Positions 40,591 through 62,941 of a DNA stretch of 63,260 nucleotides are shown here, one piece after another. How positions within the stretch are numbered: position 1 is the first letter of the stretch; every line of letters begins with the position of its first letter. The position numbers were made by a program, and so were the translations under genes. The stretch comes from Bacteroidota bacterium. GTDB lineage: Bacteria; Bacteroidota; Ignavibacteria; Ignavibacteriales; Ignavibacteriaceae. The stretch lies in the NCBI GenBank assembly GCA_023475265.1, contig JAMCWE010000227.1, positions 1 to 63,260 of the forward strand, written 5' to 3'. The notes beneath the pieces are model-generated. The model had not been told where the DNA came from. It saw only the letters and a list, made by a program, of their open reading frames with translations, and made no database searches.

Positions 40591-42138
40591 TTACTTCAGC
40601 AATTCCATCTTCATTACTTTACTATTATTTCCTTCCGTCAATCTATAAAAATAAATTCCGGATGATAAACCTTGCCTACCGGCAGGCAGGTTGGAAGCGT
40701 TAAATTGAACACTATGAACACCAGCGCTCATTGGTTGATTAATTAAAGTCGATACTTTTTGCCCAAGGAGATTATAAATAGATAAATTTACATTTGAATT
40801 TTCTTTTATTGAAAACACTATTGTAGTACTTGGGTTGAAAGGATTTGGATAATTTTGACGGAGACTGAAATTATCCGGTGCAGAATTTTTATTATTCGTT
40901 ATACCGGTTGTTACTTTATCAGCGGTAACAATATAAAAATTACTTACTTCGCTTTGAGAAATTGATACAGTATTATTTGAAGAGTTAACAACAGTATTAG
41001 AAGCATCAACCCATTGGCTGCTTTGGTCATCCCAATATTTAACTTTCATATTACCCGCGTTAATATTAAATCCGTTAGTTTGAAGACTATCATAATGAAA
41101 TTGAAATTTTACCATCGAATTGAAATTCATGTGCCCACCCATTTTACCGGATTGACTCATTGCGTTCATGCCGTTTGGTAAAAACGTTGCAACTTCAAAA
41201 GCAGCCATCGCGTTTTGAGCAGAATCGTTAGGTACATCATGCGGAAAGACTTCAAGTATCTGACAGTATAATGAATCGGGCATCATTCCACCGCCCATCA
41301 TACCGCCGTTGTTCCATCCGGGATTAACTTCCATCCAATCTGTTGAATCAAATGGATTGAAGAAGCGTTGAGCCTGGCTCATATTTTTATGAATCCATCC
41401 GCCGCCCATATTGCTGTCCATTTGAGTTGAGTCGCGCCAAACTTGTCCGTTTAGCTTATAGACTACAATCATATTCATATAATTAGTTCCCATTTTCCAG
41501 CCGGAGATTGAAATATTAGCGCCGCTGACCGGAAGCTTTGCACCCGATGGAGAAACGTACCAGGGCGGACCGAAGTTAAGGAAATAGTCAGGTGTACCGT
41601 CGTTGTTCGTATCGAGATAATAATGATTGTATATAAAAGTTGAATCGACATGAACGATTCCGTTAAGAGTTATACTTTGAAGTGAATCATGATTCCAGCC
41701 GAAAGCATATCCCATTCCCATGTGTCCGCTTCCTCCCATCATTGAATTATGGCCCATATTATTCCAGAACGAATCGAAGGGCGAGCGCCAAAAATTTCCG
41801 TTAATAGAATATACAACAACCATAGGCAAAAAGTTTAACATACCATTATAAAGCCCGCCGGTAATTGTAATAGTGTCGCCTACTTTAGGTCTAACTGCGG
41901 AACTGCTATCCGGTTTGTACCAGTAAGGACCAAAGTTCAACATGTAATCGGGTTTGTTGTCATTGTTTATATCGAGGTAATACATTCCATTCATCATTGA
42001 TGAGTCGGCGGTAACTTTTCCGGAAACAGTAATTGACTTTAGAGAATCGGGATTAAAGTTGCCGCTGTGCATCCAGCCCTGGCTAAAGCCAAAGGCTGTG
42101 GATAAAAGTATTATTGTAAATAATAATTTAATTTTCAT
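40591..42138 (-). CDS. T9SS-exported Met/His-rich protein with two OB-like repeats
   Basis: 515 residues with signal peptide (LLFTIILLSTAFGFSQG). Two repeats (about 30-120 and 150-235) share SITVSGKV/SITLNGIV, YYLDxNNDxxPDYxLNFGP and a VVYxxNGxxWR strand; the YYLDINNDNKPDY loop looks like a calcium-binding loop. Between and after them are Met/His-rich runs (MGGSGHMGMGYAFGWNH, GGMMGGGMMPD) that could bind copper or another soft metal. C-terminal type IX sorting domain (RQNYPNPFNPST ... KMELLK) is interrupted by an in-frame palindromic insert, LPAGRQG, at 40670-40690. Neighbour of the metal efflux genes, probably a surface metal-binding protein. Confidence 0.75.
   Translation of the reverse strand: MKIKLLFTIILLSTAFGFSQGWMHSGNFNPDSLKSITVSGKVTADSSMMNGMYYLDINNDNKPDYMLNFGPYWYKPDSSSAVRPKVGDTITITGGLYNGMLNFLPMVVVYSINGNFWRSPFDSFWNNMGHNSMMGGSGHMGMGYAFGWNHDSLQSITLNGIVHVDSTFIYNHYYLDTNNDGTPDYFLNFGPPWYVSPSGAKLPVSGANISISGWKMGTNYMNMIVVYKLNGQVWRDSTQMDSNMGGGWIHKNMSQAQRFFNPFDSTDWMEVNPGWNNGGMMGGGMMPDSLYCQILEVFPHDVPNDSAQNAMAAFEVATFLPNGMNAMSQSGKMGGHMNFNSMVKFQFHYDSLQTNGFNINAGNMKVKYWDDQSSQWVDASNTVVNSSNNTVSISQSEVSNFYIVTADKVTTGITNNKNSAPDNFSLRQNYPNPFNPSTTIVFSIKENSNVNLSIYNLLGQKVSTLINQPMSAGVHSVQFNASNLPAGRQGLSSGIYFYRLTEGNNSKVMKMELLK
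40667..40693. repeat. GCCTGCC-type palindromic element inside the T9SS sorting domain
   Basis: AACC-TTGCCT pairs with AGGCA-GGTT around ACCGGC. On the coding (minus) strand it adds LPAGRQG between FNASN and LSSGIYFY, where other sorting domains in this window (for example FNANSLSSGVYFY) have no such residues. Reading frame is kept. Confidence 0.8.
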
Positions 42139-43029: not shown

Positions 43030-46000
43030 TTATTTTTCTTCCTCAAAATTATACTTTGTAAATCTCCCAAAGCGTAACGATAAAGCCGGCAGTACAAGAA
43101 GATTTAATAACGTTGATGTTGCAAGTCCGCCAAGTATAACAATTGCCAATGGTCCTTCAATTTCTTTGCCTGCCGAGCCGCTTCCGATTGCTAACGGTAG
43201 TAATCCCAAACCGGTTACCAAAGCTGTCATTAAAATCGGGACGAGCCTTTCCGATGCGCCTAATATTGCTGTTTCGAAATTCCATTCCCTGCCTTCAAAT
43301 TTTACTAAGTGTTCGTAGTGCGAAATTAACATAAGCGAGTTTCTCATTGTTATTCCGAACAAAGTAATGAAGCCTACCATCGAACCAAGACTCATTTGTC
43401 CGCCGGATAAAAGAACAGAAATAATTCCTCCGACAAATGCAAAGGGTAAATTTGACAAAACAAGAAAAAGATTTCTTAAATTTTTCAGAGCAATAAAAAG
43501 CAGTAAAATAATTCCGGCGCCGGCAATTGCGGAATAGATAAACAATTCTCTTCTTGATTTCGCTTGAGCCGCAGCAGTGCCGCCAAATTCAACATAAGTT
43601 CCTTCCGGAAATTTAATAGACGATTCTATTTTTCCCTTTGCATCTTTAACAAATGAAACGACATCTGTTCCTTTAAAATTACAAGTAATAGTCTGCACGC
43701 GCCGGGCTCCGTTATGAAGGATAATATATCTTCCCGAAGTTTCATAAACATCCGCAAGCTGACTTAACTTAACATAAACTCCGTCTGAATTTTTCAATAA
43801 AAGATTTGAAACATTGTTTACGGACTCACGGTCTTTAGAATCCAAAATTGTAGAGACGGTAAATACTTGATTGCCATCGTAGACTTGCCCAACATCTGTC
43901 CCTTGATACGCAGTCTGCACCGCATCGAGAACATCTTTTGAATCAAATCCCCATCGCTGCAAATCATCCTTTCGCAAGTGTACGGTTAGCTGCGGCATTC
44001 CGGGAGGAGATTGTATTTGCACATCAACCGCGCCCGGAACTTTAGAAAGTATCTGCGAAGTTTCTTGCGCAAGATTATCCAAAGAGTTAAGGTCATTTCC
44101 ATAAATATTCAAAACAACAGAAGAAGTATAACCTGAAAGAGTTTCTTCCATTCGCTCGGTTAAGAAAGTATTTACCCCAACATTAACACCAACAAACGAA
44201 GCGAGTGTTTTTCTAATTTCATCTTGAGCCTTTACCATCTGCTCGCTGTTTAACGGCTTTAATTGAATTTCAAACTCGCTATAATTTGTTCCCCATGTAT
44301 CATCGCCTTTCTCCGCTCGGCCTGTACGTTCTCCAATTGTTTGAATAAACGGCAGCTTCATAAGAGCCGCTGATATTTTTTTACTGAGCTCTAATGATTC
44401 ATTTATAGAAGTTCCGGGAACTGCAGAAACATGCGCAATAAAATGTCCTTCCTTTAGTGCAGGTATAAAGCTTTCTCCAAAGAAGGGCAAAGCAGTAAAT
44501 CCGGCAAGAGTAATAATTATAACTGCAGTAATTACTTTCCCGGAATTCACTTCCACTTTGTTTAGAATAATTTTGTATTTATTCTTTAACCAAACTACAA
44601 AAGGAGATTCTTTCCTCCCTGCCTGTCCGGCAGGCAAGTCAACAATTTTTTGATTTCCAAGAAGAACAAGGCTTAGCGCCGGTGTTACTGTAAGAGCAAC
44701 AAGAAGCGAGGCTAGAACAGAAAATATGTAGGCTATTCCAAGAGGAGAAAAAAGTTTTCCCGCTATACCGGAAAGTGTAAGTATGGGAATGAAAACGAGC
44801 ACTACTGCAAACGTAGCATAAATTACCGCGGTCCGGACTTCAAGCGAAGCATTGAGCACTACCCAGAAATTAGGCTTTGGATTTTTCAGAGAACGATTTT
44901 CTTTAAGTCTTCTTAGAATATTTTCAACATCAATTACAGCATCGTCGACGACTTCTCCAATGGCAATAGCAAGACCGCCGAGCGTCATTGTGTTTATTGT
45001 TAATCCGAATGATTGCAAAGCAACAATGCCGGCAAGCAGCGAAAGCGGAATTGCGGTGCATGAAATTGCCGCCGTTCTAAAATTAAAGAGGAAGAGAAGT
45101 AAAACTAATACAACTAAAACAGCGCCCAGTATCAGCGAGCCTTCGATATTGCCAAGCGCGGTATGAATGAAATCTGCAGGACGAAATAATGTTATCAAAT
45201 TAATATTTTCAGAATTAACCGCAGGCCGCATGTCTCTTAATGCTGCTTCAACATTTTTAGTAACTTCAAGAGTGTTGGTTCCATACTGACCGTAAATCAT
45301 CATCATTACGCCGGGTGAACCTTCAATTGTTGCGCTGCCTATCGGCGGTTCCGGTGCAATTAGAACGTCTGCTACATCGCCGAGAGTTATGTTCAGATTA
45401 TTTTTGTGAAGAATAACTGTCTTAGCGAGATCAGCCTCAGTTAAGGATTGCCCTTCTGTTTGAAGTACGATCCGCTGATTATTATTTTCAATAAAGCCGG
45501 AGCCTTCTACAGCAGTTGCGCGCTTTGCAGCAGTGAGTACATCTTCAATTGATAAATTATATTTTATAAGTTCATCCGGATGAACTTGAATTTGAAATTG
45601 TTTAACATCGCCGCCAAACACAGTAACGTTTGCAACGCCGGTTACCGAAAGCAGCCTTCGCCGTAAAACCCAATCTGCAAAAGTTCTCAGTTGCATCGGA
45701 GTTTTTTCTGAAGAGGTTAATCCGATAACAAGCGTAAGCCCGGTGGAAGGAACAAGCGGCGTCATCTCCGGCTGCTTAACGCCAACAGGCAGTTGACCGG
45801 CTAAAGTTGAAAGACGTTCCGTTACAAACTGGCGGTCAATATAAATGTTGCTGCCTTCCTTAAAAGTTGCAGTAACAACAGAAATACCTTGAATTGATTT
45901 TGACCGAAGCGAAGAGATGCCGACAATACCGTTTACGGCATTCTCAATCGGCTGCGTAACCAACACTTCAACTTGTTCCGGTGAAAGCCCGGGCGCTTCT

Positions 46001-47875: not shown

Positions 47876-47910
47876 CCCGGTTAAACCTACCTGACGGCAG
47901 GCAGGCCGGG
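47876..47910. terminator. Hairpin with nested GCCTGCC-type palindrome after the cytochrome gene
   Basis: Outer stem CCCGG (47876-47880) with CCGGG (47906-47910); inside, CCTACCTG and CAGGCAGG pair (47886-47905) as in the palindromic repeats. It follows the cytochrome stop by 23 bases. As at 2154-2200, the mobile palindrome appears to sit within the loop of an older hairpin. Confidence 0.5.
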
Positions 47911-50445: not shown

Positions 50446-51847
50446 AATTAAAAAACCTCTTTTTACCGATACAGTAAAACGGATTGTACTTTGGGATATT
50501 GCAATTTTTTTTCTTCTATTCGTTACTTCAAATGTTTTTACAATTGTGATAACAAATAAAATCTTGACAGACAATCTTGATGAGAGATTGAAGAACGAAG
50601 TTGAAACATTACTCGGTTCATTTGTAATACGGCAGGATTCAATAAAGTTTACCGGCTACAGCGAAATAAAAGAACCGAATTTTACCACAATAAATTCCGG
50701 TGCATTTTTTCTTCAGGTTTACAGCATAAAAGATAAATTGCTTTTAAGCAGCGACAATTTAAAATCATTTGGAACGATTACATTTAATATCCCGGATATA
50801 AAATCAAAATATGAGTTTGCAAATCTGACTGCCGGCAATCATCAGCTTAGAGTTATTTACACTCCGCTTATGAATGAGCAAAATAAACTTGCCGCTTACC
50901 TCCAGCTCTCAGTATTCAGAACAGAATACAGTTCAATAATGAAAAAGATAATTTTATTTAATCTACTTAATCTTCCTTTTATACTTCTTATTATTGTTCT
51001 TGTCAGTATTTTCCTGGCAAAAAAAAGTTATTCGCCGTTGAATAAGATCATCAGCATCGCCGAAAATATTTCCGCTAATAATCTGAATGCGCGCATTAAA
51101 TATGATGCCCATCCTCAAGATGAATTGGGAAGATTAAGAGACACTTTAAATAATTTGTTCACAAGACTTGAAGCTCAGATAAATCAAATCTCGCAATTCA
51201 CAGATAACGCATCACATCAATTAATGACTCCGCTTACTGCCGTTAAGACAGAACTGGAATACATTCTTAAGCGGGATAGAGCACCGGAAGAATATAAAGA
51301 AACATTAACAATGCTGAATGTACAGACAGATAAAATGATCAGCATAATTAAATCGCTTTTGGTAATTGCTAAATACAGCAGCAACACTGAAGAGTATAAA
51401 AGCGTGTTCAAAATATCGCAAGTAATTAACGAGCTGATTAAACCGGTCTTCAAGAATCAAAATATTGATTATGAAATAGGCGGCGATCTTTATCTGCGCG
51501 GAAGTTATGAGGGCTTTCAAATAGTTTTGGAAAATCTAATTGACAACGCTATCAAATATTCACCGGATAAAAGCCGAGTAATTGTCAGAGCAGAAAGGGT
51601 AGATGATAATGTAAAAATTAGCGTTGAAGATTTTGGGACTGGAATTATTGACGAAGAGAAAGAAAAAATATTTGAAAAGTTTTACCGTACAGCTTCTTCA
51701 ATAAAAGGAAGCGTTCAAGGTTATGGGTTAGGATTATGTTTGGTAAAAACAATTGTACTTTCAATGGAAGGGACAATAAAGGTTGAGGATAATTTGCAAA
51801 TCGGTACAAAGTTTATTGTCAGCTTTCCTTTGATCAATATAATTTAG
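50414..51847 (+). CDS. Sensor histidine kinase
   Basis: 477 residues. Two membrane helices (about 20-44 and 178-205) frame a periplasmic sensor of about 130 residues without recognisable cofactor motif. HAMP domain (SYSPLNKIISIAENISANNL), dimerisation domain with phospho-His268 (TDNASHQLMTPLTAV), and HATPase with N box (LENLIDNAIKYSP), G1 (VEDFGTGI) and G2 (GYGLGLCLVKTIV). The ATG lies inside the regulator gene. Partner of the OmpR-type regulator; signal unknown. Confidence 0.93.
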   Translation: MAKDTFSLLNKIKKPLFTDTVKRIVLWDIAIFFLLFVTSNVFTIVITNKILTDNLDERLKNEVETLLGSFVIRQDSIKFTGYSEIKEPNFTTINSGAFFLQVYSIKDKLLLSSDNLKSFGTITFNIPDIKSKYEFANLTAGNHQLRVIYTPLMNEQNKLAAYLQLSVFRTEYSSIMKKIILFNLLNLPFILLIIVLVSIFLAKKSYSPLNKIISIAENISANNLNARIKYDAHPQDELGRLRDTLNNLFTRLEAQINQISQFTDNASHQLMTPLTAVKTELEYILKRDRAPEEYKETLTMLNVQTDKMISIIKSLLVIAKYSSNTEEYKSVFKISQVINELIKPVFKNQNIDYEIGGDLYLRGSYEGFQIVLENLIDNAIKYSPDKSRVIVRAERVDDNVKISVEDFGTGIIDEEKEKIFEKFYRTASSIKGSVQGYGLGLCLVKTIVLSMEGTIKVEDNLQIGTKFIVSFPLINII

Positions 51848-52016
51848 TTTACAAAACTATAAAAACTAAAAAGTTATAACCTTATCAAAATTCTGCCTGT
51901 GCATTTTCTATCAACCGTTATTGATTACTTATTACTGAAGACTTAATTTTGCCATTCAGAAAGCAGATATAAGTTATTTCAACTTAAAATTTTTATTTAT
52001 CAGCAAAGGCGTAAAT

Positions 52017-54734
52017 ATGAAATTCGATTTTTCAGTACCGGACATTCTTGAAATCAAAGAAAAGTATGTTAAATCCGAAACGGTTTTTCGCAGAGGACAA
52101 AGTTTAATCGACAACGAAATGTGTACTCTTGTCAGCGAGTCGGATAATAGATTTAATTTTATTGTTGAAGACCGGTTTGATGATTTTCATGTAACAATTT
52201 TGCCGTCTGAAAAGAAGTCTTCTTCGCAAAGCGAGCTGTCAATTCAATGTAATTGCGATTCACATTTTGATTGCTGCCCGCACTCTGCTGCTGCGCTTAT
52301 CATGCTTAGAATTAAATTTGATGAAGCAAAAAATAAAGCATCCTCTATAAGCAGTAAGTACACAAAAAAAGAAATGATAAAACGGGTATTGAAAGAAAGA
52401 CAGGAAAAAGCCGCCAAGGAAAAATTTGAAATTCGTTTGGCAGAAAATATTCACGGCTTTCATAAAATCAAAACAGAGGAAGGAAGAACTTATGAAATTA
52501 CCATCAGAGATTTCGCAGCAGGCAGCGGATATTGCTCGTGCCCCGATTTTAAGACCAACAAGCTTGGAACTTGCAAGCATTTGATTTTTGCTTCGGACTA
52601 CCTGAACAAGAAATTTAAGAATTCAAAATCATTAACCAATCAAGATTATCCTTTCGTCGAAATCTATTGCGATCCTCATTACGATTATAATATCACTTAT
52701 TTTTACGAACGAAATCTTCAGCCGGAAGTAGACACTTTAATTCACAAATATTTTCCCCGACAAAGTCGGGATGGATTCCCAAACGGCAGCCAGTACATCA
52801 TGCCTGAAAGATATTCCGAATTCTTAAAGTTCATTGAAGAAGCTGAAGAATATAAATCGATTTTAATCCGTCCGGAAGTAAATGAAAAAATAGATAAATA
52901 TTTTGATACGCAATCGCTCAAACAACTTAGCGAAAAGATAACACCGGACTTTTCAAAAATAAAAGCTAAGCTGTTCGATTACCAGAAGGAGAGCATTTTG
53001 TTTTCTTTATTTAAGAAAGGAAACATTATTGCAGATGAAATGGGCTTAGGAAAAACGCTGCAAGCAATTGCTGTTGCGATTTTGAAAAAAGATATTTATG
53101 GTCTAAACAAGGCGTTAATAATTTGTCCGGCATCTCTAAAGTATCAATGGAAAAAGGAAATCGAACGCTTTACCGGCGATAAGGCGCTCATCATTGAGGG
53201 AGTGCGAAGCGATAGACATTCTATCTACAAAAGCGCCGGTGAATTTTTTCTCATCGCAAACTACGAAGCCGTAATGCGGGATATTACTATTATTCATCAG
53301 TATCCGCCAGACATGATAATACTTGATGAAGCACAGAAAATAAAGAACTACGATACGAAAACTTCACACGCTGTAAAATCAATTCCCAAAAAGCATTCTT
53401 TAGTAATTACCGGAACTCCGCTTGAAAACAATTTGCTGGACTTATATTCGATAATGAATTTTGTTGATCCCGAAGTGTTAGCGCCGCAGTGGGAGTTTTC
53501 AATGAACCATTGTTATTTCGATAAGGACAAGAGGAACATGGTAACCGGCTATTTTAATTTACAAGAACTAAAAAATAAATTAGCCGATTATGTTATCAGG
53601 CGTGAGAAGGCGGATGTTTTGAAAGAGCTGCCGGCAGTTCAAGAAGTAACGGTGCCGGTTGTGCTTCACGAAGCTCAGGCGGAAATTCATGCCGGGTTCG
53701 CAAGATCGCTGGCTCCGATTCTGCATAAAAAACATAAAACTTTTTACGACATGCAGCGCATCCAGCAAATACTTACCAGCATGAGGATGGTATGCGATTC
53801 AACTTTTCTTATTGATAAGGAAACAAATTACTCTCCCAAATTAGATGAATTGGAAATTATACTTTTAGAAAAGCTGAGCATCAAAAACCGGAAAAGGAAA
53901 GTTATAATCTTTTCCGAATGGAAAACGATGCTTCATTTAATCGGTAAGATGCTGAAGACAAACGGCATTCAATACGTTACTCTATCGGGAGACGTGCCGG
54001 TAAATAAAAGAAGCTTTTTGATAGACGAATTTGCAAATAACCCGGACACGCTTGTATTTCTTTCAACCGAAGCAGGCGGCACGGGATTAAACTTGCAGTT
54101 TGCAGATACTGTAATCAATTTTGATTTGCCCTGGAATCCCGCAAAAAAAAATCAGAGGATCGGACGTATAAACCGCATCGGGCAGGTAAGTCCAAAATTA
54201 ACCGCTATAAATATGGTCGCACAGAACAGCATAGAACATAATATCGCAAACGGGATTGTTGTTAAAGAAGCTTTGTTCAATGCAGTATTAAATAACGCCA
54301 ACTTAACGGAGGAAGTAGATTTTGCAGCTAAGGGAAGATCAACATTTATTGAGCAGGTTAATAAGATGATTCAGCCTGTCGAAGCTCCCGAGATTGTGCA
54401 TGATGAATCCTTTGAAGAAACAAAAGTAGAAATTGTAAATGAGGCTGAGAGTGCCGGTGAATTGATTGAAGAGACTGTACTGCTTGATGAAAAAATTAAA
54501 TCAGGCAATGCAGGCACAACTATTTCAAAAATAATTTCTACTAAAGATGATTTAACAGAACAGCATACACCCGAACCGCAGGAAATAGAAACCACTTTAA
54601 ATCAAGGAATGCAATTCTTAAACGGCATATTTAAAATGGCTACAGGCAAAGAATTAATTACAGAAGGAAAAGGAATAACAGTAAACCGCGAAACCGGCGA
54701 AGTTACTATGAAATTTAAGCTGCCGGGATTTTGA
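52017..54734 (+). CDS. SNF2-family helicase with two SWIM zinc fingers
   Basis: 905 residues. Two SWIM-type CxC...CxH fingers: residues 78-89 (CNCDSHFDCCPH) and 173-188 (CSCPDF ... CKH). SNF2 ATPase from about 318: EMGLGKT (341-347, Walker A), DEAQ (437-440), TGTPLENNLLDLYSIM, helicase C with STEAGGTGLNLQFADTVINF and QRIGRINRIGQ. A C-terminal tail of 150 residues is acidic. An in-frame CCCGAC/GTCGGG palindrome adds PRQSRDG near residue 247. SWIM-SNF2 proteins remodel nucleoprotein and are common next to defence genes. Left end of the conflict-like island. Confidence 0.92.
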   Translation: MKFDFSVPDILEIKEKYVKSETVFRRGQSLIDNEMCTLVSESDNRFNFIVEDRFDDFHVTILPSEKKSSSQSELSIQCNCDSHFDCCPHSAAALIMLRIKFDEAKNKASSISSKYTKKEMIKRVLKERQEKAAKEKFEIRLAENIHGFHKIKTEEGRTYEITIRDFAAGSGYCSCPDFKTNKLGTCKHLIFASDYLNKKFKNSKSLTNQDYPFVEIYCDPHYDYNITYFYERNLQPEVDTLIHKYFPRQSRDGFPNGSQYIMPERYSEFLKFIEEAEEYKSILIRPEVNEKIDKYFDTQSLKQLSEKITPDFSKIKAKLFDYQKESILFSLFKKGNIIADEMGLGKTLQAIAVAILKKDIYGLNKALIICPASLKYQWKKEIERFTGDKALIIEGVRSDRHSIYKSAGEFFLIANYEAVMRDITIIHQYPPDMIILDEAQKIKNYDTKTSHAVKSIPKKHSLVITGTPLENNLLDLYSIMNFVDPEVLAPQWEFSMNHCYFDKDKRNMVTGYFNLQELKNKLADYVIRREKADVLKELPAVQEVTVPVVLHEAQAEIHAGFARSLAPILHKKHKTFYDMQRIQQILTSMRMVCDSTFLIDKETNYSPKLDELEIILLEKLSIKNRKRKVIIFSEWKTMLHLIGKMLKTNGIQYVTLSGDVPVNKRSFLIDEFANNPDTLVFLSTEAGGTGLNLQFADTVINFDLPWNPAKKNQRIGRINRIGQVSPKLTAINMVAQNSIEHNIANGIVVKEALFNAVLNNANLTEEVDFAAKGRSTFIEQVNKMIQPVEAPEIVHDESFEETKVEIVNEAESAGELIEETVLLDEKIKSGNAGTTISKIISTKDDLTEQHTPEPQEIETTLNQGMQFLNGIFKMATGKELITEGKGITVNRETGEVTMKFKLPGF
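52755..52771. repeat. CCCGAC/GTCGGG palindromic element inside the SNF2 gene
   Basis: CCCGAC (52756-52761) and GTCGGG (52765-52770) around AAA form a perfect 6-bp stem. It encodes PRQSRDG between HKYF and FPNGSQ, in the linker between SWIM finger and ATPase. A second class of palindrome, distinct from the GCCTGCC family. Confidence 0.6.
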
Positions 54735-54819
54735 AGGCACTATAATTTATTCTATTATTATAAGTAATTCAGTTTTATTCTTATAATATTTTAATTATCT
54801 TTATAAAAAAGAAAAAGCA

Positions 54820-55041
54820 ATGCAAAAAGTGATGAAAAAAGATTTCCTAAAAGTAGATAGAAACTCATTCTCTGTAATTTCTTTGGATAAAAACGATGAT
54901 GATATAAAGTACTGGCTTTCAAAATCTCCTGTGGAACGTATACATGCTGTAGAATTTTTAAGACAATTAATGTATAACTATGATCCGTCTACCGAAAGAC
55001 TTCAGCGAGTTTTTGAAACTGCTGAATTCAAAACAAATTGA
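54820..55041 (+). CDS. Small partner protein of the nucleotidyltransferase module
   Basis: 73 residues: KDFLKVDRNSFSVISLDK, DDIKYWLSKSPVERIHAVEF, LRQLMYNYDPSTERLQRVFE. The YWLSKxPxERxxAxExLR ... RLQRV pattern is that of the short gene that normally precedes and overlaps a MNT-type nucleotidyltransferase gene in two-gene, toxin-antitoxin-like modules. It overlaps the next gene, whose start lies at 54980. Role as antidote or partner is inferred from the arrangement. Confidence 0.65.
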   Translation: MQKVMKKDFLKVDRNSFSVISLDKNDDDIKYWLSKSPVERIHAVEFLRQLMYNYDPSTERLQRVFETAEFKTN

Positions 55042-55412
55042 ATATTTAGTAATCGGAGGCTGGGCGGTTGGTTATTATGGCTATCCGAGAGCTACAGGAG
55101 ATATGGATATCCAGAAAAAAAGAAAATGCCGTTAATATTGTAGAGGTATTTAAAGAATTTGGATTTGATGTTCCAACCCTCTCAATTGAATTATTTACAA
55201 AGAAAAATCAAGTAACCAGAATTGGAATCCCGCCAATGCGAATTGAAATACTAACGACAATTTCAGGCGTATCTTTTGAGGAATGCTTCAACAATCGTCA
55301 GACTGTTACACTTGATAATGTAAATATCAATTTTATCAACCTTCAAGATTTGAAAAAAAATAAGGCTGCTTCCGGGCGCTATAAAGACTTAGATGACCTT
55401 GAAAAATTATAA
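54980..55412 (+). pseudogene. Frameshifted MNT-type nucleotidyltransferase
   Basis: From ATG 54980 one frame reads MIRLPKDFSEFLKLLNSKQI, then EYLVIGGWAVGYYGYPRATG and DMDI; from 55104 the next frame continues WISRKKENAVNIVEVFKEFG and on to DLDDLEKL. The family's active-site core (GGWAVGYYGYPRATGDMDIW) is complete apart from the shift. The junction ATGGATAT (55103-55110) would be one copy of a tandem 8-base repeat in the intact gene: GAT-ATGGATAT-ATGGATAT-CC reads DMDIWIS in frame. Loss of one 8-base copy by slippage explains everything. The protein is dead unless frameshifting occurs. Confidence 0.85.
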
Positions 55413-55419
55413 CGCAAAT

Positions 55420-55626
55420 TCAATACCCCTGTTCATTTAATACATCATAATCTCCATTTTGTAAAAGCGTAATCGGGTCGGCGTTTTGAAGGTAGAATTC
55501 TTTTACTGGAATTCCGTCGATTACATATATCTTTTCCTTTTTCATTTTCCCTCTTACAAAATATATCCGGAGAATATATTCTCCTTTATGATCCTTCCGG
55601 ATTTTGGGTTTTCGTTTTTGTTTCAT
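55420..55626 (-). CDS. Small basic protein of unknown function
   Basis: 68 residues. Basic N-terminus (MKQKRKPKIRKDHKGEY), a beta-hairpin-like middle (ILRIYFVRGKMKKEKIYVID) and GIPVKEFYLQNADPITLLQN. No recognised domain. Twenty-four bases downstream of the DUF5615 toxin gene on the same strand, so possibly a third member of that unit. Ribosome site TAGGAAAACC upstream supports translation. Confidence 0.55.
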   Translation of the reverse strand: MKQKRKPKIRKDHKGEYILRIYFVRGKMKKEKIYVIDGIPVKEFYLQNADPITLLQNGDYDVLNEQGY

Positions 55627-55650
55627 TGGTTTTCCTAATACAAACTTATT

Positions 55651-56004
55651 TTAATCTCGCTCAGCAATGTCTCTTCTATTGATTTCAATTAAATTACTTT
55701 TGGCTAACATTGCTGTAATCCTATCAAGATTATTTTCAAAGATTTTTAGTAGTTCTTTATTGGAGATATTACCCGTCCTTACCATTATTAGTTTAGGTGG
55801 CTCAGACTTTATCAGAAAAGAATCTAAAAAATCATTGTCCTTACTAATGACAACTCGGTTTTCTTTTATTGCTTCTTGGATAATTTGAATATCTTTAGTT
55901 CTATTTTTCCCGGGAAGTTCTAAAGTGTGGATTGAATTGAAGCCTTTGTGCTTCAAAAACTCTGATAATGATTTTGGTAGTTGCGCATCAATTAAAAATT
56001 TCAC
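55651..56004 (-). CDS. DUF5615 PIN-like toxin
   Basis: 117 residues. MKFLIDAQLPKSLSEFLKHK contains the first PIN acid (Asp6), VISKDNDFLDSF carries the central acids, and LIMVRTGNISNKELLKIF follows, as in DUF5615 PIN-like proteins, which pair with DUF433. Likely a small RNase toxin. Start overlaps the stop of the DUF433 gene by four bases (ATGA-type), so the pair is co-translated. Fits a toxin-antitoxin module in the island. Confidence 0.85.
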   Translation of the reverse strand: MKFLIDAQLPKSLSEFLKHKGFNSIHTLELPGKNRTKDIQIIQEAIKENRVVISKDNDFLDSFLIKSEPPKLIMVRTGNISNKELLKIFENNLDRITAMLAKSNLIEINRRDIAERD

Positions 56005-56234
56005 GAGGCTGTTTTATAAATGCTTTTTACATGTGAAAGTTTAGCTGCGTATTCTAAACAAGCTAAAAAATCTTCCTTTTCCAAATCCGGGTAGTCTTTA
56101 AGCAGTTCATCCACACTCATTCCCGATGCCATTAATTCAAGCATGTTTTCAACTGGATATCTTAGTCCCCGGATAGTAGGCTTACCATGACATATTTCGG
56201 GGTCAATGGTTATTCGGCTTAACAAATTTTTCAT
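56001..56234 (-). CDS. DUF433 antitoxin
   Basis: 77 residues from the ATG at 56234, which fits the family better than an upstream TTG at 56276. DUF433 signature: RITIDPEICHGKPTIRGLRY, PVENMLELMASGMSVDELLK, then DYPDLEKEDFLACLEYAA. These small HTH-like proteins neutralise PIN-type partners and repress their own promoter. Overlaps the toxin gene by four bases. Confidence 0.88.
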   Translation of the reverse strand: MKNLLSRITIDPEICHGKPTIRGLRYPVENMLELMASGMSVDELLKDYPDLEKEDFLACLEYAAKLSHVKSIYKTAS

Positions 56235-56459
56235 TTTACCACTTACTTTCCTAATTACTATCACTTTCTCTAACAATCAATTCCGTGATTAAGTGACACC
56301 TTAATAGTAATATTCTTTTACAATAACTTAGAACTTTCTATATTTAACTTACCGAAAAGAGTTGAAAGGCACAATAACTTAAAATACAAAATCCTTACCC
56401 CTAATATTTCTTCTTACCCTATTTCTTTCTATTTTCATATTGAATTGAAAAGCACAACA

Positions 56460-59400
56460 ATGACTGACGACAAAAATAATAATATGTCTCTGCTTGATAC
56501 GATTCAGTCTCTGCTTATCGAAAACGAAAGACTAGAAGCGGAAAATAAAAAGCTGAAAGAGCAGCTTGACAGCTTCCTGCTGGATAGGCAAATGCCCTCT
56601 CATCTTGATGAAACAATAATTGCAACTGAGACACCAACTGCTTCGTATCGATTTATAAATTCATCAGAGGCAGAAACACATCATGAAAATATTTCTTCAA
56701 TTAATCAAAACAGCAGTCCCGATTCTAAGATAAGATTATTTATGTCTCTCTTTAAAGGAAGAAAAGATGTCTTCGCTAAAAGATGGCAAAATAGAAACGG
56801 CGCTTCAGGTTATTCGCCTGTTTGTCTTAACGAATGGAAACTCGGGATATGCAGCAAGCCGAAAATAAAATGCTCGGAATGCGCTAATAAATCATTTCAG
56901 ATTCTAAATGAAAAAGTTATTGACGAACATTTAAGGGGAAACATAGTTGCAGGCATTTATCCCATGCAGCTTGATGAAACTTGTTATTTCTTAGCTATTG
57001 ATTTTGATGATGAAGGCTTGCCTGCTGATAGAATCATGCGGCAAGCAGGCTGGGAAAAAGATATTTCGCTATTGAGAAATATATGCAATGAGCTTGATAT
57101 TCCATTTGCGGTTGAACGCTCCCGTTCGGGGAACGGCGCTCATGCTTGGTTCTTCTTTGATGAGCCAATATCTGCCGCTTTAGCAAGGAAATTTGGAACC
57201 TCTTTACTTACCTATTCAATGAACAAAAGACATGAAATCAAATTCAAATCTTACGACAGATTTTTCCCTAATCAAGATACAATGCCCAAAGGCGGATTCG
57301 GAAATTTGATTGCCCTTCCGCTTCAAATGACGGCAAGAAAAAAAGGCAACAGCGTTTTTATCGATGAGAATTTTAAACCGTATGATGACCAGTGGGAGTT
57401 TTTGAGTTCAATAAAAAAAATACCGGGAGATTCAATTGTAACATTAACAACAAGACTTTCCTCAGACTGTTATGGAAACGAATTAGGAGTGTTGAGAAAA
57501 GACGATGAAGAAACACCTAAGCCGTGGGAGAAATCTCAGACAGTTCATTTGACAAAAAATGACTTACCGGATAAAATAAATCTTGTAAAAGCAAATATGA
57601 TTTATGTACTGAAGAATGGCGTTTCTCAAAAGGCATTAAATGTATTGAAACGGTTAGCGGCATTTAAGAATCCGGAGTTTTACAAAGCTCAAGCGTTGCG
57701 AATGACTACTTATAACAAGCCGAGAATTATTTCTTGCTCTGATGAAACAGAAGAATATCTTTGTCTGCCGAGGGGCTGTGAAGAAGATGTAAAAAATTTA
57801 TTAAATGAATTTGATGTCGATATAGAAATTGCGGATAAAACTAATCATGGTAGAAATATTAATGTTGAGTTTAACGGGAAGTTAAGGAACGATCAGCTTA
57901 CAGCAATAAATGAGCTTATAAAATATGATAACGGAGTATTAGCCGCAGCCACAGCGTTCGGGAAAACGGTAGTAGCAGCTAAACTGATTGCAGAAAGAAA
58001 AACCAATGCACTTGTGCTGGTCCACAGGCAGCAGCTGCTTTCGCAATGGATAACGAAGCTATCGGAGTTTCTAAATATTAAGGAAGAATTGCCTGTACTT
58101 GAGAAAAAGCGGGGAAGACAGAAGCGGCAGCCTTTAATCGGGCAACTCGGCGGCGGTAAAGAAAATTTAACCGGTATTATTGATGTTGCTATAATACAGT
58201 CATTATACAGAGAAAATGAAATAAAAGATTTTATTAAAAATTACGGAATGGTGATTGTCGATGAATGCCACCATGTTCCGGCGTTTAGCTTTGAACAGAT
58301 ACTAAAAAACGTTCACGCAAAATTTGTTTATGGGTTAACTGCAACGCCGGTAAGATTGGATGGACATCATCCGATTATTTTTATGCATTGCGGACCTGTA
58401 AGATTCAAAGTTGAGGCAAAAGCGCAAGCCGGACAAAGACCCTTTGAATACTTCGTTATTCCAAGATTTACAAGCTACAGAGTGCCGGTAGATAAAGATG
58501 AGAAAACACCAACAATACAAGATCTGTATTCCGAATTAACGGTGAATGAAATGCGCAACCAGCTTATTGCCGGTGATGTAATAAAAAATTATAATAGCGG
58601 CAGAAGCTCTCTTGTCTTAACAGAAAGAACCGCTCATGTTGAACTTCTTTCAAAAATGCTGAATGAGAAAATTCCGGATGTAAAAACTCTGACAGGAAAA
58701 ACCGGTGTAAAAGAAATAAGAGAAACATTAAAAAGAATTTCCGAGACACCGCCGGGGAAGCCGTTAACGTTGGTTGCAACCGGTAAATACATTGGTGAAG
58801 GTTTTGACGAGCCGCGGCTTGATACTTTATTTTTGACGATGCCCATTTCGTGGAGAGGCACTTTGCAGCAATATGCCGGAAGGCTTAATAGATTATATGA
58901 AAATAAAAATGAAGTTCAAGTTTATGATTATGTCGATATTCATGTTAGAATGCTTGAGAAGATGTACAACAAACGACTCAACGGTTATGCTTCGTTTGGT
59001 TATAAAGCGAAAGGAGAAATCCTGCAAGGCGGGACAGCGGAATCGATTAATTTTATTTTTAACAAGGATAGTTTCTTGCCGGTTTATAGCAGCGATATTG
59101 TGAACGCACAGAAAGAAATTTTCATTGTCAGCCCTTTTGTTTCAAAAAGACGGTCTGAACAATTACTTCAACATTTAAGAGTAGCAGTAAGTAATAATGT
59201 TAAGGTAATTATTTTAACGAGACCGCCGGAAGATTACAGGGAAAAGGATAGATTATTTTTAAAGCACGCTCTTGATACATTAAAGAAGGAAGGTATCAAC
59301 TTATTATTCAAATCAAATATTCACCAGAAATTTGCAGTGATTGATCAAAAGATTGTTTGGTATGGTAGCATAAATCTTCTAAGCTTCGGAAGCGCTGAAG

Positions 59401-59465
59401 AAAGCATAATGCGGCTTGAAAGTTCTAATATTGCGATTGAGCTTTTGAAAAGTATTGATATGTGA
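56460..59465 (+). CDS. TOTE-type primase-helicase-phospholipase D protein
   Basis: 1001 residues from ATG 56460. Order: coiled coil (10-45), zinc-finger Cys (CLNEW ... CSKPKIKCSECANK, about 122-144), archaeo-eukaryotic primase (DFDD at 181-184, ERSRSGNGAHAWFFF, FPNQDTMPKGGFGNL), SF2 helicase (ATAFGKTVVAAKL, DECHH, GLTATPVR, QYAGRLNRLYE), and one C-terminal HKD phospholipase D motif (HQKFAVIDQKIVWYGSIN). This is the TOTE conflict system architecture, thought to act against foreign nucleic acid. Eleven residues (LPADRIMRQAG, 187-197), coded by a palindromic element, are inserted directly after the catalytic DFDDEG. Confidence 0.92.
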   Translation: MTDDKNNNMSLLDTIQSLLIENERLEAENKKLKEQLDSFLLDRQMPSHLDETIIATETPTASYRFINSSEAETHHENISSINQNSSPDSKIRLFMSLFKGRKDVFAKRWQNRNGASGYSPVCLNEWKLGICSKPKIKCSECANKSFQILNEKVIDEHLRGNIVAGIYPMQLDETCYFLAIDFDDEGLPADRIMRQAGWEKDISLLRNICNELDIPFAVERSRSGNGAHAWFFFDEPISAALARKFGTSLLTYSMNKRHEIKFKSYDRFFPNQDTMPKGGFGNLIALPLQMTARKKGNSVFIDENFKPYDDQWEFLSSIKKIPGDSIVTLTTRLSSDCYGNELGVLRKDDEETPKPWEKSQTVHLTKNDLPDKINLVKANMIYVLKNGVSQKALNVLKRLAAFKNPEFYKAQALRMTTYNKPRIISCSDETEEYLCLPRGCEEDVKNLLNEFDVDIEIADKTNHGRNINVEFNGKLRNDQLTAINELIKYDNGVLAAATAFGKTVVAAKLIAERKTNALVLVHRQQLLSQWITKLSEFLNIKEELPVLEKKRGRQKRQPLIGQLGGGKENLTGIIDVAIIQSLYRENEIKDFIKNYGMVIVDECHHVPAFSFEQILKNVHAKFVYGLTATPVRLDGHHPIIFMHCGPVRFKVEAKAQAGQRPFEYFVIPRFTSYRVPVDKDEKTPTIQDLYSELTVNEMRNQLIAGDVIKNYNSGRSSLVLTERTAHVELLSKMLNEKIPDVKTLTGKTGVKEIRETLKRISETPPGKPLTLVATGKYIGEGFDEPRLDTLFLTMPISWRGTLQQYAGRLNRLYENKNEVQVYDYVDIHVRMLEKMYNKRLNGYASFGYKAKGEILQGGTAESINFIFNKDSFLPVYSSDIVNAQKEIFIVSPFVSKRRSEQLLQHLRVAVSNNVKVIILTRPPEDYREKDRLFLKHALDTLKKEGINLLFKSNIHQKFAVIDQKIVWYGSINLLSFGSAEESIMRLESSNIAIELLKSIDM
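57016..57050. repeat. Palindromic element inserted in the TOTE primase active site region
   Basis: GCTTGCC (57016-57022) and GGCAAGC (57040-57046) form a perfect 7-bp stem, with TGAT/ATCA pairing inside (57026-57029 and 57033-57036). The 33-base insert 57018-57050 codes for LPADRIMRQAG. Removing it restores DFDDEG-WEKDI, the usual family sequence, in frame. Confidence 0.85.
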
Positions 59466-59542
59466 ACAATAAGTAAATGGATTTCCTATAATGCTGTTTT
59501 CATTTGTTTTATAAATTTATTTCCAATCCACATTGAAATTCT

Positions 59543-59908
59543 TCAAAAGGTTATAACCTTATCCGAATCCACCGTCCACGCAGCTAACTCAGCCATAGTA
59601 CTGATTTGTGCGCCTTCAATCAAGGGAAGATTTTTAATTCCTCGCGCATCTGCACACGTACCGCAAATTCTTACGTGTCCGCCTTTGTTTAATATTGACT
59701 TCAACATTCGTTCGATATTATAGTATCCAGCGGGAGTATTTTGATTTGGCAAAGCACAAGTTGCGGCATCAGCCATTAAGAAAATTCTAACTTCCTTTGT
59801 TTCTCCATCTGAGGTGGATTCCTTTTGAAGCTGCATTGCAAGTCTTAATGCATTGTATGCTTTTTCTGTTCCGTAAGGTGCGTCATTAATGATGATAAGA
59901 TATTTCAT
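59543..59908 (-). CDS. DsrE-family sulfur-relay-like protein
   Basis: 121 residues of the DsrE/F fold: MKYLIIINDAPYGTEKAYNA, strand VRIFLMADAATCA (Cys51), and HVRICGTCADARG (Cys82, Cys85). DsrE-like proteins carry persulfide on a conserved Cys in sulfur-relay chains. Last gene of the operon led by the ArsR-rhodanese gene, 41 bases after the methyltransferase. A sulfur-handling role fits the operon; partner unknown. Confidence 0.88.
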   Translation of the reverse strand: MKYLIIINDAPYGTEKAYNALRLAMQLQKESTSDGETKEVRIFLMADAATCALPNQNTPAGYYNIERMLKSILNKGGHVRICGTCADARGIKNLPLIEGAQISTMAELAAWTVDSDKVITF

Positions 59909-59949
59909 AAATGTTCTCTATTTCTGATTTATTATTTTTGTTTAAGTAT

Positions 59950-60519
59950 TTATTTTTTAATTCCAATAATGCCGTAATGATACGGCGGTAAAGATATAAC
60001 ACCGCTTCCCAAAGCGAAGCCCGCTTCATTGAGCCAAGAAATACATTGTTCCGGTTTTGGTCTAATATCCAGAGAGGGACCTCTTGGAGTTGATGAAGAA
60101 TGAATCCAATGAATCACACCAACTTTGCCGTTATGTTTTAGAATTCGATAAGCTTCCTTTAATAATGAAATGGGATCTTCTGCATGAAGAATGTTGAAGA
60201 GCATTGTGTAATCAACCGACTCATCATTAAGCTTTGTTCCTTCTTTTACAAAATCAATTTGATGTATTTTTATATTGGATATTTTTTCTTCACGAACTTT
60301 TTGTTTAAGACTATTTATCATCTCAGTTTCAATATCAAGAGTATAAAGATTTCCTTTAATGATTTTAGCGGCTGGGATAGTGAAGGTTCCATAACCAGAG
60401 CCGAATTCAACTGCATCTTTAATTGTCTCATCAAATTGAAGCTGTGAAAGGATGTACTGTGGATTAAAAAAAGTTTCCCAGTAAGATTCTTCCGGCATTC
60501 CGCTGTCTCTTATCTTCAT
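59950..60519 (-). CDS. Class I SAM-dependent methyltransferase
   Basis: 189 residues. SAM motif I EFGSGYGTFTIPAAK (about 38-52), acidic motif II LYTLDIETEMI, YTMLFNILHAEDP and EAYRILKHNGKVGVIHW. No metal-binding Cys beyond one near the end (KPEQCISW), so not an ArsM. It lies six bases after the OsmC-like gene and belongs to the sulfur-type operon. Substrate could be a thiol, sulfide or hydroperoxide-related metabolite; not provable here. Confidence 0.85.
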   Translation of the reverse strand: MKIRDSGMPEESYWETFFNPQYILSQLQFDETIKDAVEFGSGYGTFTIPAAKIIKGNLYTLDIETEMINSLKQKVREEKISNIKIHQIDFVKEGTKLNDESVDYTMLFNILHAEDPISLLKEAYRILKHNGKVGVIHWIHSSSTPRGPSLDIRPKPEQCISWLNEAGFALGSGVISLPPYHYGIIGIKK

Positions 60520-60525
60520 ATCAAA

Positions 60526-61059
60526 TTATTCATTTGATATTTCTAAAGACGGGACTAATTTAACAGGATTCTTAAGAGTAAAAACCACCGGGCATCTCTG
60601 CAAAGCTAATTCTTCGGCTTGTTTTAATTTTTCTACCGGATCATCGCTAACTACTGTTAATATTACACGAACTTCTTCCATAATTGGCTCTTCACTAATG
60701 CCGAATACTTTTGAAAAATTCAGATCGGCTTCAACCTTTGTGGTTAGCTTTTTTAATTTTATACCGAGCATAGCAGCCATAGTTGCAAATGTTCCGGTGT
60801 AGCAAGAAGCTAATCCGTAAAAGCAGTAGTGCATTGGTCCCGGATGTGAACCGCTTCCTCCCATAAATTTCGGGTTGTCAACAATGAATTCTGTTTCTCC
60901 ATTTTCAAATTTTATTTTTGAAACAAATTGCGCGCTGCCTTCTTGAAGAATCCACTCGCCCTCGATTCCTTGAGTTCTTCTTGCCTCAGAAGGATTGTTC
61001 TTAAGTTGTGTTTCGAATGCTTGAACGCCTTCTATGTTCACGTTATTAATTTTACTCAT
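60526..61059 (-). CDS. OsmC family protein
   Basis: 177 residues with the OsmC fold: PMHYCFYGLASCYTGTFATM carries the two family cysteines (Cys79 and Cys86), later Cys156 in LQRCPVVF. OsmC/Ohr proteins reduce organic hydroperoxides or handle persulfides with these cysteines. Operon third gene, between a small wHTH protein and a methyltransferase. The YcfA/YhfA-like branch (SIEEP ... LTVVSDDP) is closer than true Ohr. Confidence 0.88.
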   Translation of the reverse strand: MSKINNVNIEGVQAFETQLKNNPSEARRTQGIEGEWILQEGSAQFVSKIKFENGETEFIVDNPKFMGGSGSHPGPMHYCFYGLASCYTGTFATMAAMLGIKLKKLTTKVEADLNFSKVFGISEEPIMEEVRVILTVVSDDPVEKLKQAEELALQRCPVVFTLKNPVKLVPSLEISNE

Positions 61060-61089
61060 GTTTACCTTTCAATTTGTTTTATAAATTTT

Positions 61090-61386
61090 TTATTCACTTG
61101 CAGATATTTCCTTCCCATATTCAATAGAATCTTTCAACGATAAAATATAATCACAAACTTTTGGGTTGACTAAGCTGTAGACAATACTATTTTCTTTTTG
61201 TCTGCGCTTAACGAGAGATTTATTATAGAGTAATTCCAATTTCTTTGTCACTTCATCTTCATTTAAATTTAAAAGATTAGCTATCGTATCCGCCGATACT
61301 TCATTTTCATAGATTGAACATAATATTTGTATGTTTTCAGAATCGGAAAAAAGCCCGGCAATTAATTCATTTGATTTAGAACTCAT
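61090..61386 (-). CDS. Small winged-helix regulator-like protein
   Basis: 98 residues predicted as a compact wHTH: SENIQILCSIYENEVSADTI, recognition-like helix NLNEDEVTKKLELLYNKSLV, wing RRQKENSIVYSLVNPKVCDY. Looks like a degenerate ArsR/MarR-type fold, with two Cys (about 28 and 78). Could be a second regulator or a DNA-free partner. Second gene of the ArsR-rhodanese operon, 22 bases after it. Confidence 0.65.
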   Translation of the reverse strand: MSSKSNELIAGLFSDSENIQILCSIYENEVSADTIANLLNLNEDEVTKKLELLYNKSLVKRRQKENSIVYSLVNPKVCDYILSLKDSIEYGKEISASE

Positions 61387-61408
61387 AATAAATATCCTAA
61401 GTTAATGA

Positions 61409-62071
61409 TTAATTAGTTTCAATTTTTAATCCTGCAAAGCGCCATGAATTTACATCTTCTTGTAGGATTGTTGTTTTAAATCCTTTTCCGGCTAAAATTT
61501 TTGCCGCTTCGGGAGCCATTACGCAATATTTACCACGGCAGTAAGCAATAATCTCTTTACCGGCTGGCAAGTTTTTTATTTTACTTTTTAGCTCGGACAT
61601 TGGCACAGAAACTGCACCGGGCAAATGACCATTGATGTATTCTTCTTTTGGTCTAACATCAATTATTGTAACATCATTGCTTTTTATTTTTGACTGCAGC
61701 TCTTTAATAGATACCGGTTCAAATACGTTTCTTTCTTCAAGAAATGACTTTATAACTTCTCTTAATTCGGCAATATTTTGTTCTGCAAGAGTTTGAATAT
61801 TTTTCCAGCATTTAATTACCTCATCATTTGAAAGGAAATAGATAACCCTTACGCCGTCTTTTCTGCTTTGGACAATCTTAGCATTCTTTAGAATCTGTAA
61901 ATGACGCGATGTGTTGGCAAAATTCATATTTGTCTCTTTTGTAAGAGTATCTACATCTTTTTCGCCTTGTGAAAGAAGGTCTATAATTTCCAGCCGCTTT
62001 GGACTGGCAAATGCATTCATAACAATTGATAGATGCTGAAATGTTAAGTCCTTAAATTCTCTGCCGGTCAT
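61409..62071 (-). CDS. ArsR winged helix fused to rhodanese domain
   Basis: 220 residues. Residues 8-98 are an ArsR-type HTH (FASPKRLEIIDLLSQGEKDV, recognition helix ANTSRHLQILKNAKI); residues 118-217 are a rhodanese domain (TIIDVRPKEEYINGHLPGAV ... AYCRGKYCVMAPEA). Catalytic persulfide Cys178 and a second Cys183 lie in the CRGKYC loop. The HTH has a single Cys (Cys88), not the Cys pair of BigR/SqrR persulfide sensors, so sensing may lie in the rhodanese loop. First gene of a five-gene operon behind a 26-bp palindrome. Confidence 0.9.
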   Translation of the reverse strand: MTGREFKDLTFQHLSIVMNAFASPKRLEIIDLLSQGEKDVDTLTKETNMNFANTSRHLQILKNAKIVQSRKDGVRVIYFLSNDEVIKCWKNIQTLAEQNIAELREVIKSFLEERNVFEPVSIKELQSKIKSNDVTIIDVRPKEEYINGHLPGAVSVPMSELKSKIKNLPAGKEIIAYCRGKYCVMAPEAAKILAGKGFKTTILQEDVNSWRFAGLKIETN

Positions 62072-62087
62072 AAAATCATCTTAATAA

Positions 62088-62113
62088 ATTATTCAATTGA
62101 TCAATTGAATAAT
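62088..62113. promoter_or_regulatory. 26-bp perfect palindrome, putative ArsR-rhodanese operator
   Basis: ATTCAATTGA (62091-62100) is followed at once by its exact reverse complement TCAATTGAAT (62101-62110), and ATT/AAT extend it on both sides to 26 bases with no mismatch. It lies 17 bases upstream of the ArsR-rhodanese start codon (62071), where ArsR-type proteins normally bind. The two TCAATTGA cores suggest paired half-sites. Confidence 0.75.
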
Positions 62114-62395
62114 AACAATTTGATTTGATAAAAACAAATATGAAGTAAAAAATAAATACCGGAATTATAGCACAGAACCAAGTGGTAAAATAAAAGTGCT
62201 ATTTTAGTCGCTATTAAATTTTACGAAAATTTATAATGAATTTTTTATAATTAGGCACATTAGTTGTATAAGATTCTTTTTCTTTTTAGTTTACACTAAG
62301 AAAAAAGTTGAAGGATTATTTAGCAGCAAAATTTTGAATTAAAAATATTAACGTAGCGTTTGCTATGTTCTTATCAGAAAACTGGCAATTTTCAG

Positions 62396-62458
62396 CACAC
62401 AAGAGCAAGCAAGAAGGCTGCGCCCAGAAATGGACGCGCTTTCTTATGTCTTTGTGTG
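62396..62458. repeat. Nested imperfect inverted repeat
   Basis: CACACAA (62396-62402) pairs with TTGTGTG (62452-62458), and AAGAA/TTCTT plus GCGCC/GG-CGC pair inside in nested order. It could be a structured leader or a small mobile palindrome. No continuation as a terminator is seen, and the distance to the CheY-like start is about 100 bases. Confidence 0.4.
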
Positions 62459-62554
62459 TGGGCATGCCAGTGCCTCTGATAAGGATGTAATGGAAGTTGC
62501 GTCCTTTTTATTTTATATAATATGAAGGGGAGGTGAGGGATTTGATAATATTTT

Positions 62555-62941
62555 ATGATGGAAGAAAAATGTTTCAAGATTCTGATAGTTGAAGATGAAG
62601 AAATCAGCCGGAATTTATACCGGTTGTGGTTAAAGAACTATGACCTTTCTTTCTGTGATTCAGAAAAATCAATGTACGATACATTATCGGATAAAATTTT
62701 TGAATTAATAATTATGGATATTGGGCTGCCCGGCTCAAAAGACGGTTTATCTTTAATTAAAGAGCTAAAGTCTAATAAGGATTTTTTAAAGATACCCATT
62801 GCTTGTGTTACCTCTTACGACTCTCCCGAACAAAAGGGCAATGTTCTAAATGCGGGAGCTGATGCCTATTTAGCCAAACCAATACCGAAGAATATTTTAA
62901 TAAACGTCATCTCTAAATTCCAACCTTTACTGCCAAAATAA
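62555..62941 (+). CDS. CheY-like single-domain response regulator
   Basis: 128 residues, receiver domain only: KILIVEDEEISRNL (acidic pocket), phosphoacceptor D55 (ELIIMDIGLPGSKDG), CVTSYDSPEQ and ADAYLAKPIPKN (Lys). No output domain, so it must act through a partner. Not next to a histidine kinase in this window. Good ribosome site not obvious; the alternative is a start at the second Met. Confidence 0.88.
   Translation: MMEEKCFKILIVEDEEISRNLYRLWLKNYDLSFCDSEKSMYDTLSDKIFELIIMDIGLPGSKDGLSLIKELKSNKDFLKIPIACVTSYDSPEQKGNVLNAGADAYLAKPIPKNILINVISKFQPLLPK

Follow-up and report, generated by a model that had tools for sequence, protein, structure and literature searches.

Short palindromes inside protein genes have been described before. 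The closest described elements are the GTAG/CGTC REPs, palindromes of 20–40 bp which are mostly intergenic, with some located inside ORFs; many of these intragenic REPs lie in DNA synthesis and repair genes, helicases included (PMC3733652). They carry the tag at one end of the palindrome and flank the gene of a RAYT tyrosine transposase. Rickettsia palindromic elements, cited in the same paper, are inserted in frame in likely functional proteins, and RPE-1 is longer than the element described here. In the open-access literature, nothing closer than PMC3733652 was found for in-frame palindromes. On the protein side, TOTE conflict systems take their name from TPR, OB, TBP and Effector (PMC12458937), and the paper on CRISPR-associated Prim-Pols (CAPP; PDB 7nqd–7nqf) contains a Prim-Pol-helicase type and describes MpCAPP as an active polymerase and primase for which D177 and D179 are needed (PMC8211822).

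The window, that is the whole stretch of 63,260 nucleotides analysed here, comes from a genome called G000 and contains a full-length gene for a protein of 1006 residues (Table 1). Its Pfam domains are AEP-TOTE (PF22548; residues 95–331, E 2.5e-103), ResIII (479–637) and PLDc_2 (884–1002), and its top PADLOC match is PrimPol (E 4.5e-90). The two-Asp Prim-Pol catalytic domain gives a profile match to 7nqd (E 1.6e-23), and among solved structures it comes closest to the CAPP Prim-Pol of Marinitoga sp. 1137 (Z 25.8 to 7nqf, rmsd 2.7, 215 residues). The catalytic fold is shared with CAPP, for which a Prim-Pol-helicase type has been described; the window protein differs in its C-terminal PLD domain, and no Cas family was matched by Pfam among the twelve neighbouring ORFs. 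The original prediction had called the protein a TOTE primase. It does have the AEP-TOTE effector domain; however, TPR, OB and TBP families have no Pfam match in the twelve neighbouring ORFs (49777–62941), and TBP (PF00352) was not found in the genome at E 0.001, while a control search detects TBP in 4 archaea. The best PADLOC match is PrimPol, and the label TOTE agrees with nothing beyond the name of the Pfam domain. A toxin-antitoxin-like pair of DUF5615 (PIN-like) and DUF433 genes (55651–56237) separates the two helicase genes of the window; at this place the relative L066, introduced below, has ORFs which by eye resemble a HEPN/nucleotidyltransferase pair instead.

Table 1. Features of the window, with positions counted from its first base
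Feature	Position	Strand	Remark
Prim-Pol (AEP)-superfamily 2 helicase-PLD-domain protein	56445..59465	+	1006 aa from TTG; alternative ATG at 56460
DFD motif, D186 and D188	57000..57008	+	aligned with DID of Marinitoga CAPP (7nqd)
In-frame insert LPADRIMRQAG, residues 192–202, 33 bases	57018..57050	+	missing in 73 of the 74 homologues that cover the site, and in the 93%-identical allele L003/G021
Inverted repeat/hairpin GCTTGCC...GGCAAGC	57016..57046	+	
Direct repeat AGGCT, left copy	57014..57018	+	
Direct repeat AGGCT, right copy	57047..57051	+	exactly 33 bases from left copy
Different palindrome CCCGACAAAGTCGGG, in frame (PRQSRDG), in SNF2 helicase	52756..52770	+	not in L066
Family copy, in frame (NLPAGRQG), in 532-residue open frame	40671..40690	-	
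Related palindrome, in frame (LPAGQAG), in open frame resembling RND transporter (by eye)	44618..44637	-	
Family copy, no open frame of at least 80 residues across it	47886..47905	+	

The insert separates DFDDEG (GAT TTT GAT GAT GAA GGC, 57000–57017) from WEKDI (TGG GAA AAA GAT at its start), and the reading frame is kept with 11 residues added. As originally claimed, it is a palindromic 33-base element, with outer arms GCTTGCC/GGCAAGC of 7 bp (perfect) and an inner repeat TGAT/ATCA of 4 bp; the ungapped arms (57016–57029 and 57033–57046) pair at 11 of 14 positions (79%). With bulges allowed, the hairpin has a stability of -16.6 kcal/mol versus a shuffle mean of -10.5 (z -2.5; equalled by 6 of 200 shuffles). 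Palindromy alone is weak evidence, because 59 of 300 shuffled versions of the gene contain an equally good inverted repeat at some position, and 20 rows of such quality occur in the window versus a shuffle mean of 7.65 (overlapping rows tallied separately). What is not chance is the coincidence of the palindrome with a stretch that nearly all homologues are without, and the likeness of its left half to a repeat family of the genome. The breakpoint is ambiguous by a few bases, because the direct repeat AGGCT occurs at both sides with a spacing of 33 bases.

A scan of the genome collection gave 112 stretches encoding relatives, from which the best 80 were kept. In a tblastn comparison using the AEP domain as query, the site is covered by 74 of these best 80 of 112 and partially by 4, and 2 have no match; 73 of the 74 are insert-free (the gap being placed 1–3 residues off in 29 of them), and L066 alone has a diverged copy. 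Motif reading gives 41 residues as the spacing for 71 readable rows. The other 5 rows, which have 52, are three fetches of the window's own genome and two of L066's. At E 1e-20, the AEP domain is present in 14 of 164 genomes of the order: the own genome and G104 have the insert, 11 are without it, and in G102 the contig stops right after an insert-free DFDDEGWQK. G104 is the genome of L066 (3699 bases, no difference), which is in the same order as the window's genome and in another family, and G021 is that of the nearest relative L003 (3678 bases, no difference). L003 has 93% identity in the best segment over the gene and is empty at the insertion site, where it reads GATGATGGTTGGGAAAAA. Because this nearest relative is a natural insert-free allele, the insert is a real gain or loss, and it is lineage-restricted. 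The complete insert form was found neither in IMG/VR nor, in 160 genomes of the order, outside the Prim-Pol gene of G000 and G104, and both of two viral homologues are without the insert.

These alignments with related genomes, which the original prediction had proposed, agree with its statement that removal of 33 bases restores the usual family order. It had also named what would speak against it, namely the same residues in an unrelated genome without a palindrome. This was found in half: L066 has the insert and its hairpin is no better than shuffled sequence (73 of 200 fold as well), but L066 belongs to the same order and is not unrelated.

AEP primases need the acidic residues of the motif for metal binding. 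In 56 aligned sequences, D102 and F103 (fragment numbering) are invariant and D104 is nearly invariant. Following the proposed structural check, the natural AEP domains of G000 and L003 were modelled with AlphaFold, and the two models have the same fold (mean pLDDT 88.6 vs 88.2; pTM 0.88 vs 0.87). The modelled strand 95–104 has the catalytic aspartates at its end, and the helix after it starts from residue 118 in G000 and from 108 in L003, while residues 108–114 of the G000 model have pLDDT below 50. On these models, the insert is probably a disordered loop between the aspartate strand and the next helix. The position was said to be the most sensitive site of the gene, which is not supported: three residues lie between the insert and the second catalytic Asp, the insert is in the loop before the helix, and the nearest solved relative, the CAPP chain from Marinitoga sp. 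1137, exceeds the profile by 14 inserted residues at the same position. The PDB titles of this Marinitoga CAPP name a dsDNA complex and a primer initiation complex, and enzyme activity is documented for its relatives MpCAPP and DbCAPP (PMC8211822); by analogy, the chain with 14 extra residues would be active too.

Between G000 and L003, dN/dS is 0.143 (dS 0.18, 990 codons). Replacements number 22 on the G000 branch and 23 on the L003 branch (9 unassigned), and silent changes 21 and 15, respectively (58 unassigned). In the AEP fragment there are 8 replacements in G000 vs 5 in L003 by our count (3 unassigned; p 0.58), and the tree branch of the fragment is 0.049 vs 0.019, so a mild relaxation in the G000 fragment is possible. 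Judged from selection and modelling, the loop appears to be tolerated and the enzyme most likely still works.

The left half of the insert leads to a family of 20-bp palindromes, named here CCTGCCTGCCGGTAGGCAGG, which occurs in 79 of 160 genomes of the order at no more than 1 mismatch; the reversed-pattern control gave 0 among the rows listed. In the own genome there are 25 strand matches to CCTGCCTGCCGRYAGGCAGG at no more than 3 mismatches (reversed control 0), which by our count are 13 distinct places; two of these, at two contig ends, may represent a single tRNA-like piece. The left half agrees with one family variant in 14 of 15 bases and with the consensus in 12 of 15. Against seven family spellings, which were picked after the insert was known, an equal score is reached by only 4 of 20,000 shuffles and by 4 of 20,000 random palindromes; the L066 copy is equalled by 0 of 20,000 shuffles and 1 of 20,000 random palindromes. 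Only the left half is clearly similar, and the middle nine bases have no counterpart in the family. On sequence likeness, membership of the insert in the CCTGCCTGCCGGTAGGCAGG family is likely.

Besides the copies in Table 1, an apparent in-frame family copy (LPAMPNGRQAG) is located on contig C122 of the own genome. Judged by motifs of their protein families, the in-frame copies at 40671–40690, at 44618–44637 and on C122 would be insertions in their proteins; the end of the 532-residue frame presumably resembles a secretion-type C-terminal domain. Of 20 family copies taken from relatives, one from each genome, 18 are not covered by any open frame of at least 120 residues. A palindrome-like stretch near 40042 was set aside as what we assume to be a natural RIPAGRW motif. 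Several other contexts were seen. For example, a tRNA-Leu-like 5' part bears the family palindrome on contigs C86 and C100 of G000 (L131 1–110, L132 1–100), for which ARAGORN makes no call, while a complete tRNA-Leu (CAG) is called at L131 366–450. Nested repeats occur in L128 and L137, where a different hairpin repeat, with GTAGAGACG-type arms, has family palindromes in its loop, and in L004 (1–2997) about 35 residues of an ORF that by eye is FAD/FeS oxidoreductase-like run over palindromes (HSPEGILRRSPFG), apparently an in-frame insert. Neither the CCTGCCTGCCGGTAGGCAGG family nor LPAGRQ peptides were found in print in the open-access literature (subscription papers lie outside this search).

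Like the GTAG/CGTC REPs of PMC3733652, the window element is a short palindrome in a helicase-bearing gene; it differs from them in its missing end tag, and no association with a RAYT gene was found. The insert starts with CTTG or TTGC and finishes with CAGG or AGGC, and the family core has GTAG only in its middle. No family core copy lies within the fetched flanks of the 9 Y1_Tnp loci in G000. In six relatives, where 30 of 39 Y1_Tnp matches had loci, a core copy lies within the fetched flanks of 3 of the 30. Mobilisation by a RAYT is not supported, with a core copy at 3 of 39 Y1_Tnp loci scanned and none in G000. For want of the end tag and of such an association, we do not class the insert with the GTAG/CGTC REPs. 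The original prediction spoke of a mobile palindrome; resemblance to a repeat family points in this direction, and no mobiliser was found. Its precedent, the Rickettsia palindromic elements, is comparable, being in-frame palindromes in protein genes with insert-free homologues, but they belong to another lineage. In-frame intragenic palindromes are thus already known, and the window insert works like those.

A tree of the AEP domain, built from 18 of the 56 aligned rows, places G000 next to L003 as its sister (100/99), and the six-row clade to which both belong also includes L066. The inserts of G000 and L066, at the same site, differ in 5 of 33 bases, while 30-codon blocks at 150–329, two of which contain the insert, differ at 7–18 per 90, so the insert seems to have diverged alongside its gene. 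All five differences are in the loop, the right arm or just beyond (two-sided 0.06 if the halves are equally likely), and hairpin stability is -17.2 in G000 vs -10.2 in L066. The simplest history has the insert gained once and then precisely lost in L003. A REP-like palindrome, its left arm related to the CCTGCCTGCCGGTAGGCAGG family, would have entered the Prim-Pol-helicase-PLD gene in a single event in the common ancestor of G000 and L066. By chance it would have had 33 bases and no stop in frame, and would thus have become a disordered 11-residue loop between the strand of the metal-binding aspartates and the next helix, where Prim-Pols differ in length, leaving an enzyme that most likely still works. 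Later, L003/G021 would have lost the insert precisely, plausibly by slippage between the AGGCT repeats across the hairpin. To this reading as a whole, with a REP-like palindrome tolerated as a loop, one ancestral entry and a precise loss in L003/G021, we give a probability of about 0.68.

Other histories were weighed against it. Under the sister relationship of G000 and L003, a single gain requires the precise loss in L003 or an exchange, and the three alleles are at roughly equal distances from one another in the block that contains the insert (3/60, 7/90, 3/60); hence L003 may never have had the insert, which either entered twice at one site, in G000 and in L066, or passed between lineages by a short exchange. 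The two copies, however, have 28 of 33 bases in common, much of the middle included, with a divergence like that of the flanking blocks, and G000 is closer to L003 than to L066 in every 30-codon block compared, so we regard these routes as rather improbable. Exchange from an L066-like donor into G000 in particular is disfavoured by the latter comparison, a very short tract being possible. It is also doubtful, to a slightly lesser degree, that the insert arose without any repeat family, through a local replication error, in which the template would switch by fold-back to neighbouring sequence, with quasi-palindrome correction afterwards. Such an origin would suit a complete form unique to the Prim-Pol gene in 160 genomes of the order, the 7-bp inverted match between GCAGGCA at 56949–56955 and TGCCTGC within the insert, and the confinement of the five differences together with the stabler G000 hairpin; it fits poorly with 14 of 15 bases agreeing with a family variant, which is rare by chance, and with the other in-frame palindromes in the same genome.

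The effect on the enzyme is a separate matter, for which the original prediction had left two outcomes. That the loop inactivates or dampens the primase, with the helicase and PLD parts kept, seems unlikely: D186 and D188 are intact and conserved, replacement counts over the gene are equal on both branches, the modelled fold is unaltered and the solved Marinitoga relative has a longer loop at the same place, against which stand the closeness to the metal site, the longer AEP branch of G000 and the interrupted gene of the other carrier. In L066 (4001–7144) the match to the Prim-Pol gene ends at about residue 565 and is followed by reverse-strand ORFs that by eye resemble transposase, so the sole other carrier probably has no working enzyme. 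The homologue L073 ends at a contig end at nearly the same residue. Tolerance as a loop, the other outcome, is favoured by a full-length gene under a low dN/dS, with balanced replacements and the same predicted fold.

A second gene of the locus, for an SNF2 helicase (52017–54734), also holds a palindrome: CCCGACAAAGTCGGG is in frame in both G000 and G021, where L066 reads HKYFNGNQY. Only in G021 does this gene contain a second addition, of 21 bases around AAGGACTCCTTCGGAG, which likewise keeps the frame (L192 13294–13308). CCCGAC-N(0-5)-GTCGGG occurs at 0–3 places per genome in six genomes (reversed control 1 in one) and AAGGACTCCTTCGGAG at 0–3 places in the genomes tested, and because of these low copy numbers we do not call them families. 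The alignment pieces of the window and G021 contain four gaps of at least 12 bases. Two are the Prim-Pol and SNF2 palindromes. Neither of the remaining two is evidently palindromic: one, of 20 bases, precedes the SNF2 gene, and the other, at 52232 within this gene, is of 18 bases with a 6-base gap adjacent to it. In G021, the SNF2 gene is closely preceded by the remnant of a Y1_Tnp-type transposase, which is spread over two overlapping frames (L192; G021:C53:42277-42601). A general habit of in-frame palindromes is suggested at most, given the low copy numbers of the SNF2 palindromes in the genomes tested and the two long gaps without an evident palindrome. A still wider view is highly improbable, in which palindromes would repeatedly enter and precisely leave coding genes of the order in frame, defence helicase and primase genes would carry reversible loops, with Prim-Pol and SNF2 as two cases at one locus, and the active-site loop would tune the enzyme until slippage removes it.

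In summary, G000 and L003 provide a natural pair of alleles with and without the insert, 93% identical, on which it can be asked how an enzyme tolerates a palindrome that has been inserted next to its catalytic centre. The insert also points to a palindrome family in about half of the sampled genomes of the order, whose copies sometimes become protein as LPAGRQ-type peptides, and such peptides can mislead the annotation and the alignments of metagenome-assembled genomes.
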